DNA of 64,000 nucleotides from Acetobacterium woodii (GTDB taxonomy: Bacteria > Bacillota > Clostridia > Eubacteriales > Eubacteriaceae). Every line of letters starts with the position of its first letter. Position 1 is the first letter of the stretch. Under the pieces are notes generated by a model. That model worked only from the letters and a program-made list of their open reading frames with translations, was not told the DNA's origin and searched no databases. The stretch spans positions 62,001 through 126,000 of the forward strand of contig JACQZP010000026.1 in the NCBI GenBank assembly GCA_016213825.1, in the 5' to 3' direction. Positions 39,362-50,569 of the stretch are shown piece after piece. Made by a program: the position numbers and the translations under genes.

Positions 39362-40792
39362 TCAATTATTGCTTTCAAAGGCCCGTAAGGTGGAACCTGG
39401 TGCCGGGGAACCGACTGGAACAACGATAATTTCAATGGCTTCCAAGCGGTAGCCGAAGCCTACGGTACCGGAATTGCCACCGTTTTTAGCCCAGTCCAGC
39501 CAGCCGATGTTTTCGGCATGAACCCGGTAATAAATATCATAGCGGGAAGCATCAGCACCGGTTAATCGAACCTGGATGGCTTCTAAACGAAGTCCCTGAT
39601 TGGAAGTGCCACTGATTTCATTATCGCTTTTCCAATCCTGCCAGCCGATGTTTTGAATTTGTGTGCGATAAGCAACACCCAGATCATAGCCTTTGTTATC
39701 AACCTGGATTTGAATTGCTTCCAGTCGTTTGGACTCACCAGAGGTCCCGCTGAGTTCACCATTTGACTTCCATAGTTGCCAGCCGATATCCTGAACATGA
39801 GTATGATAAGAACAGATGATGCTTTTCTGCGCTGAGACGCTTAAAGCTGTGGCAGCCGTATTGCCAGCATTATCATAAGCGTAAATATGAACGGTGTAGC
39901 TGCCCAGTTCATTATTGTGCTGGTTGTAAGAAACCCGATAGCTGGCGGTATTACCGCTGATCGTCGCTGGATGCCAGACCAGATCGTCCTGACCATTTGC
40001 ATCAGTCCAGGTGGGGAAAAGAACCGATGAAATGCCCGAATCCGCATCAGACACTTGGCAAGACACCGTAAAACCCTCATCATTCACATCCGTTATTTGG
40101 GTATTCGAGATCGTTGGTGGGGTGGTGTCCCGGGCTGGTTCCGGATCAAAGTCGCCAAGATAGATATACCCCTGGAATCCGCCCACTGAAACAGCGTCTT
40201 CTGAACCAGCTGTAAAGGTGGTGGTATAAAAGTAGGAACCACTCCAGGATGATTCAGAAACAGTTACTTTATTTCCATCAATTTTTTCGACAACCGCAAC
40301 ATGTCCGCAGGAACTACCATTCCAACAGAGAATTGCTCCAACCTTAGGCGTGCTACCATGGGAATAAGCACCGCTATTCAGGTTATAGTCCCAAAACTCA
40401 TTGGCGTTGCCATTGCTTAAATTGGGCTTGCTGCCCAGAATTTCGTAAGCTCGACCCCAGGCATAGGCGGTACAGTTCGGCATGCCATAGCCAGCCAGAT
40501 AGAAAATATTTTTAGCGAAGTAATAATCGTTGTCCGATGTGGGGGCGGTGAGTCGTGGTGAGAAAACCGACGCCGTATTCATGGTATTATTTTGATAGGC
40601 TTCGTCGGGCCAACCGGGATCAGTTGCAACATCACCGGGAAGCATCTCCCGGGTTTCCACGAGTGGTTGGGCATCAATGGCGGTCACCACCGTTCCATTG
40701 CCGTCGTTTTCTTGTGCCAGTGCAGCAGCTGGATAAATTCCCAAGGCCAGAATCAAGACAAAACAGATTAATGTCCCTCGATAAAACTTCAT
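39362..40792 (-). CDS. Secreted CHAP-domain hydrolase with three ChW repeats
   Basis: 476 residues. Signal peptide 1-26 (ending AALAQ), CHAP amidase/endopeptidase domain about 90-210 with catalytic Cys107 (MPNCTAYAWGRA) and His164 (CGHVAVVEKI), an Ig-like or GBS-Bsp domain about 225-320 (ISNTQITDVNDEGFTVSCQV, in part), then three ChW repeats to the end. CHAP enzymes cut peptidoglycan peptides, so this is probably a cell-wall hydrolase targeted by ChW binding. Related in its ChW part to the subtilase at 24324. RBS GGGAGGATC. Monocistronic. Confidence 0.94.
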   Translation of the reverse strand: MKFYRGTLICFVLILALGIYPAAALAQENDGNGTVVTAIDAQPLVETREMLPGDVATDPGWPDEAYQNNTMNTASVFSPRLTAPTSDNDYYFAKNIFYLAGYGMPNCTAYAWGRAYEILGSKPNLSNGNANEFWDYNLNSGAYSHGSTPKVGAILCWNGSSCGHVAVVEKIDGNKVTVSESSWSGSYFYTTTFTAGSEDAVSVGGFQGYIYLGDFDPEPARDTTPPTISNTQITDVNDEGFTVSCQVSDADSGISSVLFPTWTDANGQDDLVWHPATISGNTASYRVSYNQHNNELGSYTVHIYAYDNAGNTAATALSVSAQKSIICSYHTHVQDIGWQLWKSNGELSGTSGESKRLEAIQIQVDNKGYDLGVAYRTQIQNIGWQDWKSDNEISGTSNQGLRLEAIQVRLTGADASRYDIYYRVHAENIGWLDWAKNGGNSGTVGFGYRLEAIEIIVVPVGSPAPGSTLRAFESNN

Positions 40793-43027: not shown

Positions 43028-43103
43028 GATTGGATTGGCGACTCCTTTTACAAGCCTGATGCGAACGGACACAAAAGTTATACAAATATTTACAGCTTAT
43101 CTA

Positions 43104-43131
43104 TTTACATATTATAATAATGTGATATAAT
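43104..43131 (+). promoter_or_regulatory. Promoter of candidate RNA unit R1
   Basis: TTTACA (43104-43109), 16-bp spacer, TATAAT (43126-43131). The same arrangement is found at the homologous position of unit R2. Confidence 0.75.
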
Positions 43132-43137
43132 AAATTT

Positions 43138-43620
43138 AAATCAAAGATAAACTCAATCCTTTTCTGAATTGAATGATTACGATCATTGAAAAGTAAACAA
43201 TCGCACAGCTCACCAATAAAAGAATAATTACTTGGCTTAAAGTAAAACGTTGGCCAATGGAAAATTGATTCATTTTAAAGGTAGTGGGAAAAATTTGAAT
43301 GAGAAAACAGATTGCTCCGAAATGAAGAGCGGAAGAAACCTCAAATAAATCAAACGGGGATAGTCAAAGATCATTGGGTATCAAGAAAAACCATTCGGTG
43401 AAAATGATGACGTAAAGATCCCAGAATGATGCAGATGAGTTAAAACGAATCCAATCTAAAGAGTAAGATGATTCCAAAAAGTTGGCGTGTTTATGAAGAG
43501 AAGTGAAAAAGAAGATTTTTGATAAAATCAAAAGAAGGAGTCCAAACAGGATGACAACAGAGATTTTAGACTGAGCCGGTTTTGCAGATAGAAATGTAAA
43601 ATCGGCTCTAGTCTTTTTTT
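43138..43620 (+). ncRNA. Candidate large noncoding RNA R1 (about 480 nt)
   Basis: A transcription unit bounded by the promoter at 43104-43131 and the terminator GACTGAGCCG...CGGCTCTAGTC-T7 (43569-43620). No ORF over about 25 codons with an RBS. It aligns along its length with R2 (45880-46391): shared TCAAAGAT at the 5' end, then GATCATT.AAAAGTAAA, CAGCT..CCA.TAAAA, and a strongly conserved ~75-base 3' block with GAAAAAGAAGATTTTTG and GGATGACAACAGAGATTTT. Within the block a seven-codon frame (43551-43574) has AAGGAG upstream. It does not look like RNase P, tmRNA, 6S or any riboswitch I know. Not part of the next gene, which has its own promoter. Confidence 0.65.
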
Positions 43621-43650
43621 GCAGCTGTGTGCAGTTATTAAAATAAAGGA

Positions 43651-43679
43651 TTGCACCTTTTGCGAACAAAAGTTATAAT
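43651..43679 (+). promoter_or_regulatory. Sigma-70 promoter of the PD-(D/E)XK-like gene
   Basis: TTGCAC (43651-43656), 17-bp spacer, TATAAT (43674-43679), downstream of the R1 terminator. Confidence 0.75.
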
Positions 43680-43788
43680 AAAAGTTAATTGTAAAATTTA
43701 GAATCCGTCGAGACAGCACTTCATAATTGTTGAAAACTCATGGACTTTCAATGCAATTATGTACACTAAAATATCGGAGGAAATTTAT

Positions 43789-45060
43789 TTGTCAAGAGGA
43801 AACATCGAAAATCTTTTAAAGGTTCCGGAAGTGGAAGCCTTTTTAAAAAATAGGGTTATTCAGAATAAAGAGTTATTTTTAAGCATCCGGGATGAAAGCA
43901 TTATCATTTATTACTGGGGGAAAAATATGATGGAGCTGGTTTATGCTGAAGACCAGAAATGCCAGGTTAGGATCAGTAAATTCTTTATTGATCGAACCGC
44001 GTTCTGCGGCCTGAAGTTTAGCCAAAAATCGGATACAATGATTTTTCCATTTAATTCGGAATTTGTTCAGGCGTTTGTGGAATCCTATCCCGAATTCAAG
44101 GAAAATGTTGAAAATGCACTGGTTGAAAGTGCCCCCATTGAAGCAAAAGCAGGGCCGCTGGGACAAAAATACCAGGGCATCATAGCTTGCAATAACAATG
44201 CCAGTGTCGATTCGGACTGGTATTGTGTGGATTTGAACTACGCACCAGATGGAACACCTTTGGGGCGAATGGATATGGTAGCCATTTCCAAAGCGAAGCA
44301 CAATGGCAAGCACCGCATGGTTCTGATTGAATGCAAGTATTCGTGGCAGGCATACAAATCGGGATATCGCAAAAATCTTTATAATAATAAGAAGAATAAG
44401 GGCTACTATATTGAAGCCAATGGTCTGAAAACCAAGGCAACCGCCAAGGGTGAGCAGCATCGTCGCCGCTTCGGCTGTAAATATGACGAAAAAAAACAAC
44501 AGATTATCGCCTATGAATTCGGTTCCGGCATCACTGGTGATTTTTACAACTATTCCCAATTCCTCTTTACGGAAGACGGCAAACTGGTTGCGGGTTTAAA
44601 AGAAGAATGTTTTGATAGTTTAAACGCCCGAAAACGGATCGGCTGTTTTGAAAGAAATGATAAAATCGGTGATGAGTTGCTTCAGCTGTTGGAGGGCTCC
44701 AGAGAAGCCTTTGTCGAAGCCTTGGGAGAGAATCCAGAGTGTGTTTTTCTGACCGTTGGTTGTGGCGATACCACCGAAAAAGCCAAACAGGCGATGACCG
44801 CCTATCTTACCCCGGGACCAACCAACACCGCCGATGTGCTGAGTATTACCCAGGACAAGTGGGTGCTGTGTTACAATAATGGCAAGGGCCGAAGTCGGGC
44901 CATTGCCCGGGATCTCAGCTTGGCAGAAGCTTTTCCGGCAGCATTTGAAGAACGGGTACGTTATTTATTTACCAGAAAAATTGCCCTGGAAAATTTAAAT
45001 ATCATTGATCAACTGGATCCTGCCAGTGCCGATGAGTTAAAAATAAAGATATTTGAATAG
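43789..45060 (+). CDS. Hypothetical protein with possible PD-(D/E)XK nuclease core
   Basis: 423 residues from a TTG at 43789, eight bases after GGAGG; an ATG at 43759 would lie upstream of that RBS. Soluble. Residues 155-185 fit a PD-(D/E)XK site: GRMDMVAIS with Asp162, then strand RMVLIECKY with Glu181 and Lys183. The C-terminal 150 residues are separate (FLTVGCGDTTEKAKQAM, KWVLCYNNGKGRSRAIARD). No helicase, methylase or phage gene adjoins it. Known family not recognised; a nuclease role is a guess from the motif. It follows RNA unit R1 by 168 bases and ends in a strong terminator. Confidence 0.7.
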   Translation: MSRGNIENLLKVPEVEAFLKNRVIQNKELFLSIRDESIIIYYWGKNMMELVYAEDQKCQVRISKFFIDRTAFCGLKFSQKSDTMIFPFNSEFVQAFVESYPEFKENVENALVESAPIEAKAGPLGQKYQGIIACNNNASVDSDWYCVDLNYAPDGTPLGRMDMVAISKAKHNGKHRMVLIECKYSWQAYKSGYRKNLYNNKKNKGYYIEANGLKTKATAKGEQHRRRFGCKYDEKKQQIIAYEFGSGITGDFYNYSQFLFTEDGKLVAGLKEECFDSLNARKRIGCFERNDKIGDELLQLLEGSREAFVEALGENPECVFLTVGCGDTTEKAKQAMTAYLTPGPTNTADVLSITQDKWVLCYNNGKGRSRAIARDLSLAEAFPAAFEERVRYLFTRKIALENLNIIDQLDPASADELKIKIFE

Positions 45061-45077
45061 AAGTGAAGATTTAGTAG

Positions 45078-45114
45078 AACAGCTGGATGATTTGAAAATC
45101 ATCCAGCTGTTTTT
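45078..45114 (+). terminator. Terminator after the nuclease-like gene
   Basis: AACAGCTGGATGAT / ATCATCCAGCTGTT with TTTT; long perfect stem. Confidence 0.92.
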
Positions 45115-45143
45115 GAATTACGGCAACCTTTTATAAATGGATT

Positions 45144-45183
45144 GTTTCAGTTAATTGAAAAAAGGGTATAAGAAAAATATCAT
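45144..45183 (+). promoter_or_regulatory. Promoter of the usp gene (sigma-B-like or sigma-70)
   Basis: Two readings overlap: GTTTCA (45144-45149), 14 bp, GGGTAT (45164-45169), sigma-B-like; or TTGAAA (45155-45160), 17 bp, TATCAT (45178-45183), sigma-70. The sequence alone does not decide. Confidence 0.4.
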
Positions 45184-45249
45184 AATTGATGAATTACCTA
45201 AGCTATAAAAGCAGACACCCTGATAATTAAGAAAACAGAGGTTACGAAT

Positions 45250-45726
45250 ATGAAATTACTGGTACCTATCGATGGTTCTAAGGCATCTATCAATGCCCTT
45301 AAAAAAGCCCTGGAGATTGCAAAAAAATACAATTTTTCAATGAAACTTGTTACCGTTGTAGAAGAGAATCATGTTACCGGTTATGGCAGAAACCAGAACT
45401 TCTGGCATCAGGTGGATGGCTCTATCATCTCTGCCGGCGGTGTGGAACTGGAGATTATGTCACAATTAGAAGAAAGAGCGGCTGAATTACTGGATCAGAT
45501 TGTGTCATCTTTTGATTTTTCCGGGATTGATCTGGAAAAAATAGTGGTGACCGGGGAACCTTCCATCGAGATTTTAGAAATTGCCAAAGATGAAGCCTTC
45601 GATTTGATTGTCATGGGAAACCGAGGAATGTCAAAAATCAAGCGTTTTTTTACTGGTTCGGTAACCCAACGGGTGATTTCAGAGGCCCCCTGTCCAGTAT
45701 TGTCAATTCATGAAGATCTTAAATAA
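45250..45726 (+). CDS. UspA-family universal stress protein
   Basis: 158 residues, single Usp domain. N-terminal MKLLVPIDGSKAS, and the ATP-binding motif G-x2-G-x9-G-S is complete (GNRGMSKIKRFFTGS), so the protein should bind ATP. A ~25-residue insert with Trp and Tyr (GYGRNQNFWHQVDG) follows the second strand. Usp proteins accumulate in starvation and stress. RBS CAGAGG is moderate. Located between the two R-type RNA units. A GC-rich hairpin (AACGGC/GCCGTT, 45771-45790) without a T-run follows. Confidence 0.93.
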   Translation: MKLLVPIDGSKASINALKKALEIAKKYNFSMKLVTVVEENHVTGYGRNQNFWHQVDGSIISAGGVELEIMSQLEERAAELLDQIVSSFDFSGIDLEKIVVTGEPSIEILEIAKDEAFDLIVMGNRGMSKIKRFFTGSVTQRVISEAPCPVLSIHEDLK

Positions 45727-45845
45727 TACTTAAAAAAGGAAACTGACTGCATCTGGATCAATTTGAGGAGAACGGCATTTAAGCGCCGTTACAAAGCTGT
45801 TTAAATAAATAATAAAATTTTATACAAACGTTTACAAAAAAGTTA

Positions 45846-45873
45846 TTTACTTATTTCAAAAAGGTGTTATAAT
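45846..45873 (+). promoter_or_regulatory. Promoter of candidate RNA unit R2
   Basis: TTTACT (45846-45851), 16-bp spacer, TATAAT (45868-45873), the same spacing as in R1. Confidence 0.75.
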
Positions 45874-45879
45874 ACAATT

Positions 45880-46391
45880 AATCAAAGATCACCTGATCAT
45901 TTAAAAGTAAATAAAAACCAGCTTGCCAGTAAAATAAAAGAAATAATCAGTGTCAACCTAAAAAATTGTACAACGATTAAATCAATTAAATTAAAGGCAC
46001 AGGAAAATTTGTGTAAAGCAGATTGGAATGAAATTAAGACAAGAAGGTAACCTCACAACGAATTAAATGAACGATGAATGAAAGTATGAATGAAAAAAAG
46101 AAAAGTTCTCACGGTTTCTGCAAACCATGTCCGATTAATAATTGGAAACGAGAAAATGTTCTTAAATCAAAAATATCAAGTAAAGAATCCAGTAAATAAT
46201 AATCCAGTGAGTATCAAACAAATCGAATCTTAAAAGTAAGAAAACCTAAAAAGTTGGTAAAGTTTACAAAAAATGAAAAAGAAGATTTTTGGTAAAAAAA
46301 TCATAGGAGGAATCCAAACGGATGACAACAGAGATTTTGGACTAGGCCGATTCAACAGGTAAAAGCGTGGAATCGGTCTTAGTCTTTTTTT
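45880..46391 (+). ncRNA. Candidate large noncoding RNA R2 (about 510 nt)
   Basis: Homologue of R1 (43138-43620). Bounded by its own promoter and by the terminator GACTAGGCCGATT...AATCGGTCTTAGTC-T7 (46340-46391), whose stem pairs although both arms differ from R1. The conserved 3' block holds AGGAGG and a seven-codon frame (46322-46345) encoding the same MTTEILD as R1. Since the next gene is convergent, R2 cannot be a leader of a downstream gene. A possible 29-codon frame from 46273 lacks an RBS and is not kept in R1. Confidence 0.65.
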
Positions 46392-46552: not shown

Positions 46553-47617
46553 TCAGGACGCACATTGAATCTGATTGCGGCCATTTTCTTTGGCAGCGTA
46601 CAGGCTGGCATCAGCAGCTTCAAATAAGTCGGTTTTACTCATCAACGGGGTAAAGGGTGTAAAGCCAATACTCATGGTAACCACTTCTTCAGGCATTGTT
46701 TCAAAAACGGCGGTTTCCAGATCCCGTCTGATCTTCTCCAAAATTTCTAGACAGGCATCTGGTGATTTTTCAGTAAAGATCACCGCAAATTCTTCACCAC
46801 CGTAGCGGGCGGCAAAATCATTAGCTTCCAGGTTATCCAGAATAATGGTCGCAGCGGTGGAGATCACCACATCCCCGTTACAATGGCCCTGGCGGTCATT
46901 AATTCCTTTGAAAAGATCCAGATCCATTAACCCCAGGGATAAATCAAAAGGCTGGCTTTTGCACTGGGTCACCAGTTCTTCCAGATATTCATGAAAGGTT
47001 TTATGGTTGTATAAATTAGTCGCTAAATCCATTTTTGTTAGCTTTTCCATATAGATATTGCGATACAGCAGTTCTTTTTCTTTTTCCACGGAAAGAACCA
47101 TATCACTATATACCCCCGAAAAGCGTTTAGTTAATTCCCGGGCCAGTAAATAGGTGCAGGTAAGAATAGCTAAAAAAGTAGTAAATTCAATCGCAGTCAT
47201 GACAGTTAAAGGTGGAAACAAAAATTTCATAATAATAAATACGGTCAGGGTTAGAATAAAAGTAAAATGGATCAGTCGCTGATCGATAAAAAAAATGGAA
47301 ATCAACACTGGCATAAAAAATAGTGGGAGCATAATAAAGATAACCGGATAATGAACCATCATTAAAATTGATACGATAGTTAGTGTTCCTAACACAATAT
47401 AATAGGGGGTAACATTATTGTGGATTCGGATGAGATGTTTAAGAATCAGGATAATAGTAATCTCTAGCAGGAGAGGCAACAAAAAACGTTCCAATAGGAA
47501 AGTTTGGGGATCTAACTGGGAGAAGTTAAGGTTAATTAGTGTCACAATGGAAGAGACCCCAATGGCAATCCATAAATAAACAATAATATGGGAGTACCAG
47601 TTTTTATTTGAATACAA
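46553..47617 (-). CDS. Membrane diguanylate cyclase (GGDEF) with degenerate I-site
   Basis: 354 residues from a TTG at 47617, eight bases after AGGAGG; the longer frame has no RBS. About six transmembrane helices (20-190), a short linker (EKEKELLYRNIYMEKL) and a GGDEF domain with DLDLFKGINDRQGH and active GGEEF (273-277). At the I-site position the sequence is EAND instead of RxxD, so product inhibition is probably lost. This is the third GGDEF protein in the window. Confidence 0.92.
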   Translation of the reverse strand: MYSNKNWYSHIIVYLWIAIGVSSIVTLINLNFSQLDPQTFLLERFLLPLLLEITIILILKHLIRIHNNVTPYYIVLGTLTIVSILMMVHYPVIFIMLPLFFMPVLISIFFIDQRLIHFTFILTLTVFIIMKFLFPPLTVMTAIEFTTFLAILTCTYLLARELTKRFSGVYSDMVLSVEKEKELLYRNIYMEKLTKMDLATNLYNHKTFHEYLEELVTQCKSQPFDLSLGLMDLDLFKGINDRQGHCNGDVVISTAATIILDNLEANDFAARYGGEEFAVIFTEKSPDACLEILEKIRRDLETAVFETMPEEVVTMSIGFTPFTPLMSKTDLFEAADASLYAAKENGRNQIQCAS

Positions 47618-48143
47618 AATGTCCACCTCCTTTATGTACTGATTAACGATCTTTTTTTGTTTTAACAATGAACGAATAATGATGATGCCTACGGGCAAGA
47701 AAACAAAATGATATGGCTCATATTGTACATTTAAATGGCCCGATTTTCAAGGTAATTGATAAAAAATATCGTGATAAATAAAAAATAGCAATTAATGGAT
47801 CGTTTTTTTTAAAACCAGAGGAAATATCTGCATCAAACAGCAATTTAAACTGGTATTTCCCGCTCTAAAATGACAAATTTGGGAATTTGAAAATAATACT
47901 GGGCAAGGATTTAATATTGTTAGTATATTTGGGTAAATATATGACAATGCGCAGTTCAAAACTGAATTGAATTAAAAATCGGAAAATAAGAAACCAAGCT
48001 ATAATTATCCGAATGTTTTGACAAATAATTACGCAAGCATCGTAAGTTTTGTTGATGGTTTGCCCAACCACTATCAAAGGCTTTTTATTCGATGTGCTCG
48101 AACTTTAACAAACGTCTGATATTGATTACAAGAAGGAGATTCC
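47618..48143. other. Intergenic region upstream of the first DUF4391 gene
   Basis: AT-rich, divergent promoter region. No ORF with RBS, no clear terminator and no homology to R1/R2 noticed. AGAAGGAG just before 48144 is the RBS of the next gene. Confidence 0.5.
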
Positions 48144-48950
48144 ATGTTTGATTTGCCGGAAACCACCAAAGTCTACAGGTTCATGCCCAAAGAGCTGTTT
48201 TATAAATATTTAAATAACAGCGCCTCCTTAAAAAAGACATTTGTTGATGAAATCGGAAGCATTATCTGGACCAATACCCTTTCACCGGAAACAATAGCCA
48301 TTGCAGCTGGGCAGGATGTTAAAGAAATTGCCATTGTTGAGATTGTTCTGAAGCGACAGGCGATTGGCCCCCAACTCATGGAAATTGTTAATCGTGAAAT
48401 GGATCAATATACCTTATTCATCACTCGCTATGAAGATTGGGGACAATACTGGTGCTGTGATCATCAGAATTTGAAAGAACAGCTGGGACAGTTTTACTGT
48501 CAGAATTATTACCAGTCCAATTGGATGATCGCAAAAGAACTATCATTGCAGATTGAAGGCGAAAACCTGGATCAGCTTTATGCGAACTTTTTTATGCAGA
48601 TTACCGGAAAACCCCTACCAGAGAAACACTGGCCGGTTAAAACTGAAAGGTCCGAACAAGTGGTTAAGGTGGAGCCAACGGATGATCAGCAAAAGTTGAA
48701 AGAATTGGAAGTTACGATTAAAGAACTTGAAGATCAGATCAATAAAGAAGTTGAGTTTGGGCGTCAGCTAAAGTTAACATCGGAACTGGAAAAAGCAAAA
48801 AATGAAAAGCAGCGTCTGGGCTCTTCCCGATCTGGTCATATAGAACTCATCCGATTAGAAAACAAGGAAAATGACCAGAATACCGCTGAAACCATCCGGC
48901 CTTTTTTCCCAAATATGACTACCAAAATGAAGGAGTGGTCAGAAAACTGA
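48144..48950 (+). CDS. DUF4391 protein, first copy
   Basis: 268 residues. The first 160 match DUF4391: MPKELFYKYL, IIWTNTLSPETIAI, an EIAIVEIVLKRQ strand, and YQSNWMIAKELSLQIEG. A charged linker, a coiled coil (about 185-225) and a short C-terminal FFPNMTTKMKEW segment follow. From memory, DUF4391 genes often lie in loci with a helicase and DNA methyltransferase (type III restriction-like or other defence); none is present here. Function unknown. Own RBS and own terminator. Confidence 0.82.
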   Translation: MFDLPETTKVYRFMPKELFYKYLNNSASLKKTFVDEIGSIIWTNTLSPETIAIAAGQDVKEIAIVEIVLKRQAIGPQLMEIVNREMDQYTLFITRYEDWGQYWCCDHQNLKEQLGQFYCQNYYQSNWMIAKELSLQIEGENLDQLYANFFMQITGKPLPEKHWPVKTERSEQVVKVEPTDDQQKLKELEVTIKELEDQINKEVEFGRQLKLTSELEKAKNEKQRLGSSRSGHIELIRLENKENDQNTAETIRPFFPNMTTKMKEWSEN

Positions 48951-49750: not shown

Positions 49751-50569
49751 ATGATAGACTTACTAAGCAGCACCAACGTATACCGACAAATGCCCAAAGA
49801 ATTGTTTTTCAAATATTTAAATTGTGCCGATACGTTAAAAAAGAAATTCACTGACGATATCGAAAGCATTATCTGGGTGAATCGATTATCGCCAGATACC
49901 CTGTCCGTCTGGCCCGGGAAAATTCTCTCTGAAATTGCGGTGGTGGAAATTGTTCTGAAACGACAGGCAATCAGCCAGGATTTGATTGAAATTATTAACC
50001 GGGAAACCAACCAATATACGGTTTTTGTGATCCGCTATGAAGAATGGGGTCAAATCTGGTGTGGGAACAATGAATCCGGTAATCATCCGGCTGATAAATT
50101 GCGATTTGACACCTATTACCAAACAAATTGGCAGTCCTATTCGGCTCTGGAACTCAAGGTGGAAGGATTCGACCTGGATCACATCTACGAAAGTATTTTA
50201 ATGCAGGTCGCCGGAAAAGCCATTACCATCGAAAACGGCAGAATTCCTCAGGAAACCGTTGCAAAAAAACAAATCCAAGATGATCGAGCCAACATCAAGA
50301 ATCAGGAAGAGGCGATTAAGAAATTACAAGTCCAGATTGATCATGAAAAAATGTTCAGCAAACAATTAAAACTCATGGGCGAACTGAAAAAAGCTAAAGA
50401 AGAATTAAAAAAAATAAGCACATCTCCATTAACCTCAAATGAAAACCAAAAGTCCGAAGAAGGACAAGCGCCTGCTAATAATATTGAAAACATCCGAGCT
50501 TTTTTCCCAAATGTTTTTATAAACATGAAAGACGGTGCCGGAAACCGATTTGATGCGAGATCATTCTAA
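49751..50569 (+). CDS. DUF4391 protein, second copy
   Basis: 272 residues, clearly paralogous to the protein at 48144: YRQMPKELFFKYL, IIWVNRLSPDTLSV, EIAVVEIVLKRQA, EEWGQIWC, then a coiled coil (about 175-215) and an AFFPNVFINMKD tail. The same domain order in both argues for duplication, yet they are divergent in sequence and separated by an opposite-strand gene. RBS AGAAGGAG. Followed 21 bases later by a small gene, probably co-transcribed. Function unknown. Confidence 0.82.
   Translation: MIDLLSSTNVYRQMPKELFFKYLNCADTLKKKFTDDIESIIWVNRLSPDTLSVWPGKILSEIAVVEIVLKRQAISQDLIEIINRETNQYTVFVIRYEEWGQIWCGNNESGNHPADKLRFDTYYQTNWQSYSALELKVEGFDLDHIYESILMQVAGKAITIENGRIPQETVAKKQIQDDRANIKNQEEAIKKLQVQIDHEKMFSKQLKLMGELKKAKEELKKISTSPLTSNENQKSEEGQAPANNIENIRAFFPNVFINMKDGAGNRFDARSF

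Follow-up and report, generated by a model that had tools for sequence, protein, structure and literature searches.

Paralogous intergenic loci of Acetobacterium woodii as members of a structured RNA family with a seven-codon open reading frame and a possible ribosome-clamping 3' module

Two intergenic loci, R1 and R2, in a 64,000-nt stretch of the Acetobacterium woodii genome (GenBank assembly GCA_016213825.1, contig JACQZP010000026.1, positions 62,001 to 126,000 of the forward strand; this whole stretch is hereafter the window, and coordinates refer to it) appear to be paralogues in a new family of stand-alone RNAs, closed by an end-to-end helix (P1) and ending in a seven-codon open reading frame (ORF) set against an intrinsic terminator. 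The existence of the family is well supported by sequence comparison; that its 3' module also clamps a ribosome is a mechanism that we infer, and we give the combined reading a probability of about 45%. The predicted RNAs begin at AAUCAAAG and end at the U-run, which places R1 at 43139-43620 (start at about 43138/43139; homology to ca. 90 units) and R2 at 45880-46391, both on the plus strand. A first-pass annotation of the window had described the pair as a candidate new, large non-coding RNA (ncRNA) family. The family is indeed new, duplicated, and organized from promoter to terminator, but it cannot be called purely non-coding, since almost all intact copies have a strong ribosome-binding site and a seven-codon ORF.

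R1 and R2 align along their length, as the first-pass annotation had observed, with 77% identity over the 3' ca. 200 nt (blastn, E 4e-24) and 76% in the promoter region (E 5e-4). This similarity is far above chance, because 18 of the 19 Acetobacterium genomes searched carry the 3' block. The same sigma-70-type promoter layout precedes both units: TTTACA (43104-43109)-N16-TATAAT (43126-43131) at R1, which is conserved in the family, and TTTACT (45846-45851)-N16-TATAAT (45868-45873) at R2. Both end in intrinsic terminators whose arms vary yet still pair, at 43568-43620 in R1 (stem 43568-43614, then the U-run; fold -27.6 kcal/mol) and 46339-46391 in R2 (stem to 46384, then the U-run; -24.2 kcal/mol). 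The covariation claimed from these two copies proved genuine, with compensatory changes in P1 across genera. None of the Rfam models matched R1 or R2 at threshold, and nothing credible appeared even at E<=10.

A search with the 3' block found five intact copies in the source genome and approximately four to seven in most Acetobacterium genomes; the sole genome of the 19 without a copy (G007, 2.2 Mb) is also the smallest. The single-contig genome G018 carries four, all on the minus strand, at about 2715471-2715584, 2713158-2713275, 2379703-2379817, and 538914-539026. BLAST with the 3' block returned no copies from other genera of the same taxonomic family, whereas a covariance model of 30 non-redundant 3' blocks recovered them, and with a wider model diverged copies are seen in five genera of the family besides Acetobacterium (g3-g6 and g8). 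A phylum-wide sample yielded no more members at E<=1e-4. One weak candidate from another family of the order (L188) has an SD (Shine-Dalgarno) sequence, seven codons (MTSEIKN), and a terminator, and lacks a recognizable promoter or P1; four weak covariance-model matches (L189, L191, L192, and L193) were judged on reading by eye to be chance. As far as searched, the RNA appears confined to one family, that of Acetobacterium and the Eubacterium-like genera. The RNAs range from ca. 270 to 1100 nt. A short version (ca. 230-280 nt; L155-L158 and L194) occurs in two genera, divergent from the diadenylate cyclase gene cdaA, and its P1 sequences are entirely different. Five Acetobacterium copies (L160, L161, L163, L167, and L170) are degenerate, having kept the terminator and lost the start codon or the ORF.

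Helix P1 pairs the RNA 5' end (AAUCAAAGAUC) with a strand just 5' of the 3' block, upstream of the SD sequence. In R1 it joins AUCAAAGAUA (43140-43149) to GAUUUUUGAU (43514-43523), and in R2 AUCAAAGAUC (45881-45890) to GAUUUUUGGU (46284-46293); the full-length folds give pairing probabilities of 0.87 for R1 and 0.98 for R2. Over 91 copies, 91% of cells are paired, vs. 37-56% when the partner is slid, and shuffling partners among the 56 distinct pairs failed to attain the observed pairing in any of 5000 trials (0/5000), these counts being uncorrected for relatedness. Stronger evidence is that lineages have replaced the helix wholesale: next to cdaA, Eubacterium-like genomes carry AUCAAUU/AAUUGAU, genus g4 has UUAAUUGAAU/AUUCAAUUAA at its cdaA locus, and further versions are UCAAACAG/CUGUUUGA, AUCAAC/GUUGAU, ACCAAA/UUUGGU, and a 14-bp helix in L151. 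The mean P1 pairing probability in individual full-length folds is 0.79.

The first-pass annotation saw no ORF of note in either unit and overlooked the conserved ORF of the 3' block. Downstream of P1 come, in order, a strong SD sequence, an AUG, and an ORF of seven (rarely eight) codons that ends inside the terminator stem. R1 has AAGGAG (43535-43540) followed by MTTEILD (43551-43574, stop TGA); R2 has AGGAGG (46305-46310) followed by the same peptide (46322-46345, stop TAG); each stop lies within the 5' arm of the terminator. A third SD variant, AAAGGGGUGA, is an extended complement of the 16S rRNA tail with one bulge, and across the variants it is complementarity to the anti-SD that is kept rather than sequence. 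An automatic rule scored seven codons in 91 of 92 copies, although it took a wrong upstream ATG in L022 and possibly scored a second ATG in L156-L158 near cdaA, where the ORF is MQTEPKN; in a separate automatic count L005 (MLAENES by sequence) was mis-scored. On reading by eye, the ORF has eight codons in three copies, namely L022 and L101 (both MTTEEILD) and L190 (MISEDVSA). The 59 distinct ORFs end in TAG (21), TGA (20), or TAA (18), and never in TGG at that place.

The peptide itself is far more variable. Acetobacterium copies share the consensus M-T-T-E-I, with E at position 4 in most, and other genera encode MLTEIER, MLTESER, MLTESEN, MKPESER, MKPESEH, MVIEQHC, MTKESQD, MQTEPKN, and MQTQTEK. 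On a minimum spanning tree, 24 single substitutions were synonymous and 46 non-synonymous, with 17 synonymous expected without constraint, a rough estimate that may include a few mis-called ORFs and that suggests weak amino-acid constraint. Judged from these comparisons, the peptide sequence is loose, and ORF length and stop are held.

The tail has a consistent geometry: P1 mostly ends 26-28 nt upstream of the AUG and the terminator stem mostly starts at +18 to +20 relative to it, leaving a window of ca. 44 nt between the two. An initiating ribosome is of about that size. A precedent for such an arrangement is mccA, the microcin C peptide gene, in which ribosome binding induces termination and yields a ribosome-bound short RNA (PMC6495379). 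In vitro, a ribosome makes ca. 71 mccA peptides before release, a number that falls to 30 with 11 codons and 6 with 15 (PMC6495379). Because of the ca. 44-nt window and this precedent, we propose a ribosome that would clamp the RNA tail. It would load between P1 and the terminator stem and translate the heptacodon ORF repeatedly without leaving, as on mccA in vitro; so retained, it would favor clean termination and shield the 3' end, and ribosome-associated particles of the RNA would accumulate. The central domain closed by P1, distinct in each paralogue, would perform the specific regulatory work, and selection would maintain translation itself more than the peptide.

Several observations weigh against ribosome clamping. 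In predicted folds, the ribosome-binding site is about as open as the remaining RNA. Termination alone would not explain the fixed ORF length, because extension of mccA from 7 to 15 codons left termination undisturbed (PMC6495379), and the constancy of length is partly shared ancestry, because copies from the same genus are not independent. The M-T-T-E-I consensus in Acetobacterium points to some constraint that leaves room for a peptide function, and the case for a structured central domain depends on modest z-scores of predicted folds.

Among the alternatives, one is a bifunctional messenger, in which the heptapeptide would be a leaderless signal or a modified peptide akin to ribosomally synthesized and post-translationally modified peptides, with the long structured part controlling translation or stability. 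A strong SD, a conserved start and stop, the Acetobacterium consensus, the E at position 4 of most copies, and the presence of several related but differing peptides per genome, as in peptide signaling, all fit such a messenger; yet the peptide changes almost freely between genera under weak purifying selection, the flanks hold no common enzyme, exporter, or receptor, and the terminator stem (NNC codons), not the peptide, seems to dictate residue 7. We consider it unlikely. The opposite proposal, a trans-acting structured ncRNA whose mini-ORF is untranslated, would have the SD, AUG, and stop kept for reasons at the RNA level such as base-pairing to targets. No DNA of the family is better conserved than the 3' block, parts of which could pair with targets, but the use of three different stop codons at one place, shifts in length by whole codons only, and SD variants that preserve anti-SD complementarity are hard to reconcile with an untranslated RNA, which makes this proposal rather improbable.

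Genomic context bears on two further alternatives. Short ORFs coupled to terminators are familiar from leader-peptide attenuators of the trp, tna, and erm type, and a ribosome translating the mini-ORF up to its stop within the terminator's 5' arm would mask that arm and could permit read-through into the next gene. In 46 of 72 copies the closest ORF downstream shares the strand of the RNA (median distance ca. 147 nt), as such an attenuator would need; in the remaining 26 it is convergent, including that of R2 (46553-47698, minus strand, as noted in the first-pass annotation), no downstream gene is consistent, and hundreds of nucleotides with an end-to-end helix would be superfluous for simple attenuation. 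Attenuation by a leader is thus ruled out as a general rule, in line with the first-pass view that the units are not leaders, and is quite improbable as an explanation of the family. The genes flanking copies are unrelated and mostly housekeeping, and such variety, together with the 26 convergent neighbors, favors an RNA that acts in trans. A mobile or repeat element of no use to the cell, suggested by the multiple dispersed copies and the degenerate ones reduced to a terminator, is scarcely credible given the compensated P1, the orthologue-specific central domains, and syntenic inheritance across genera; moreover, neither viral contigs (exact-pattern search) nor plasmids and phages (blastn) gave a match. 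In Acetobacterium, Eubacterium-like, g5, g6, and g8 genomes a copy lies behind a gene for a radical S-adenosylmethionine (radical-SAM) protein, assigned by reading the sequence rather than by domain search, and/or a DUF2344 gene, and g4 has a related arrangement. This shared placement points to vertical descent.

Beyond the ribosome-clamping reading of R1 and R2, we tentatively raise a broader possibility, which we hold with less assurance: a class of ribosome-anchored regulatory RNAs, paired at their ends and carrying interchangeable central domains, in which a reiteratively translated heptacodon ORF would serve as a lasting ribosome dock and translation, not the peptide, would do the work. 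If so, selection on length and stop with a drifting peptide would allow what the ribosome requires, seven codons, to be told apart from what the enzyme requires, a requirement that confounds mccA, and the gas-fermenting acetogens (Acetobacterium and the Eubacterium limosum group) would have a multi-copy RNA regulator missed by annotation. Published differential RNA sequencing (dRNA-seq) and ribosome profiling (Ribo-seq) for such species make the claim testable at once. Published work reports intergenic start sites and putative ncRNAs for A. bakii, A. woodii, and E. limosum, and some RNAs of the family may be among its unnamed intergenic transcripts.

The central domain is A-rich and very variable in length; paralogues differ in it and orthologues conserve it. 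A long ORF there is unlikely, because orthologues differ by small indels. Its folds scored below dinucleotide shuffles in every case (z-scores of about -1 to -6.4). Near the 5' end, alignments point to a hairpin in R1 (CUUUUC...AAUGAU-UACG-AUCAUUGAAAAG, 43159-43193), whose closing pair is U-A in 26 units and C-G in 8, as scored with a simple pattern, which fails to match 52 units. R1 also has a 39-nt motif, GGGAAAAATTTGAAYGARARAACAGATTGYTCHGAAATK (43286-43324), which is shared with other paralogues (33 of 93 units at E<0.01) and sits at varying positions within their central domains. The copy beside ndk (L199; G000:C10:26600-28400) is ca. 1.1 kb long and contains imperfect repeats of ca. 22 nt in its central domain, which suggests growth through repeat expansion.

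Upstream of the 3' block, the Acetobacterium promoter module reads ATACAAACGTTTACA-N7-CTATTTACTT-N15-GGTGYTATAAT, followed by AAUCAAAGAUC, and was matched in 73 of 76 copies, the match at L103 among these being spurious; an additional copy, in contig C10, has its promoter ca. 1.1 kb upstream of the 3' block. The module includes a palindromic box, TACAAATATTTACA in R1 (43081-43094) and the family consensus TACAAACGTTTACA in R2 (45823-45836). The source genome has four exact copies of the 14-mer TACAAACGTTTACA, all at RNAs of the family; its two-mismatch variants occur there at background frequency, and the Eubacterium-like groups EA and EB lack the exact box in their promoters. The box looks like a cre/LacI-family operator and might be a site for CcpA; the source genome encodes one ccpA-like protein, which scores below the curated cut-off.

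As for the neighbors of R1 and R2, a search of the window for tRNA and tmRNA genes found none. The 433-amino-acid gene downstream of R1 (43759-45060) is kept beside R1 orthologues and has no Pfam match at E<=0.001. Farther off lie two similar, adjacent plus-strand genes (48144-48950 and 49751-50569), the first with a DUF4391 match, and a minus-strand gene (39362-40792) for a predicted secreted protein with CHAP, GBS_Bsp-like, and ChW repeats.

Among known systems, the first-pass annotation had likened the units to OLE, GOLLD, and ROOL. Like these, the family is long, structured, and stand-alone; it is, however, shorter, A-rich, and multi-copy, with a translated-looking 3' micro-ORF, and in the absence of any Rfam covariance-model match the proposed kinship finds no support and membership in a known Rfam family, these three included, is ruled out. 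Dual-function RNAs, such as Staphylococcus aureus RNAIII/hld and Escherichia coli SgrS/SgrT, combine a structured RNA with a small ORF. The present family likewise joins a structured RNA to an ORF that appears to be under selection, but that ORF has only seven codons, encodes a drifting peptide, and is fixed against a terminator. Membership in the mccA/microcin C group is ruled out by the C-terminal residue and the neighbors: the C-terminal Asn of mccA is not the rule here (of the 59 distinct ORFs, 10 have AAC or AAT as codon 7), and no mccB-like (ThiF family) gene is adjacent, the flanks being unrelated housekeeping genes and the four ThiF-family proteins above cut-off in the source genome all lying outside the RNA loci. 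The ORF also ends a long, end-paired RNA with several dispersed copies per genome. Even so, the closest likeness is to mccA, found in E. coli and others: seven codons, a strong SD, an intrinsic terminator directly behind, and a conserved length without a conserved peptide sequence (PMC6495379).

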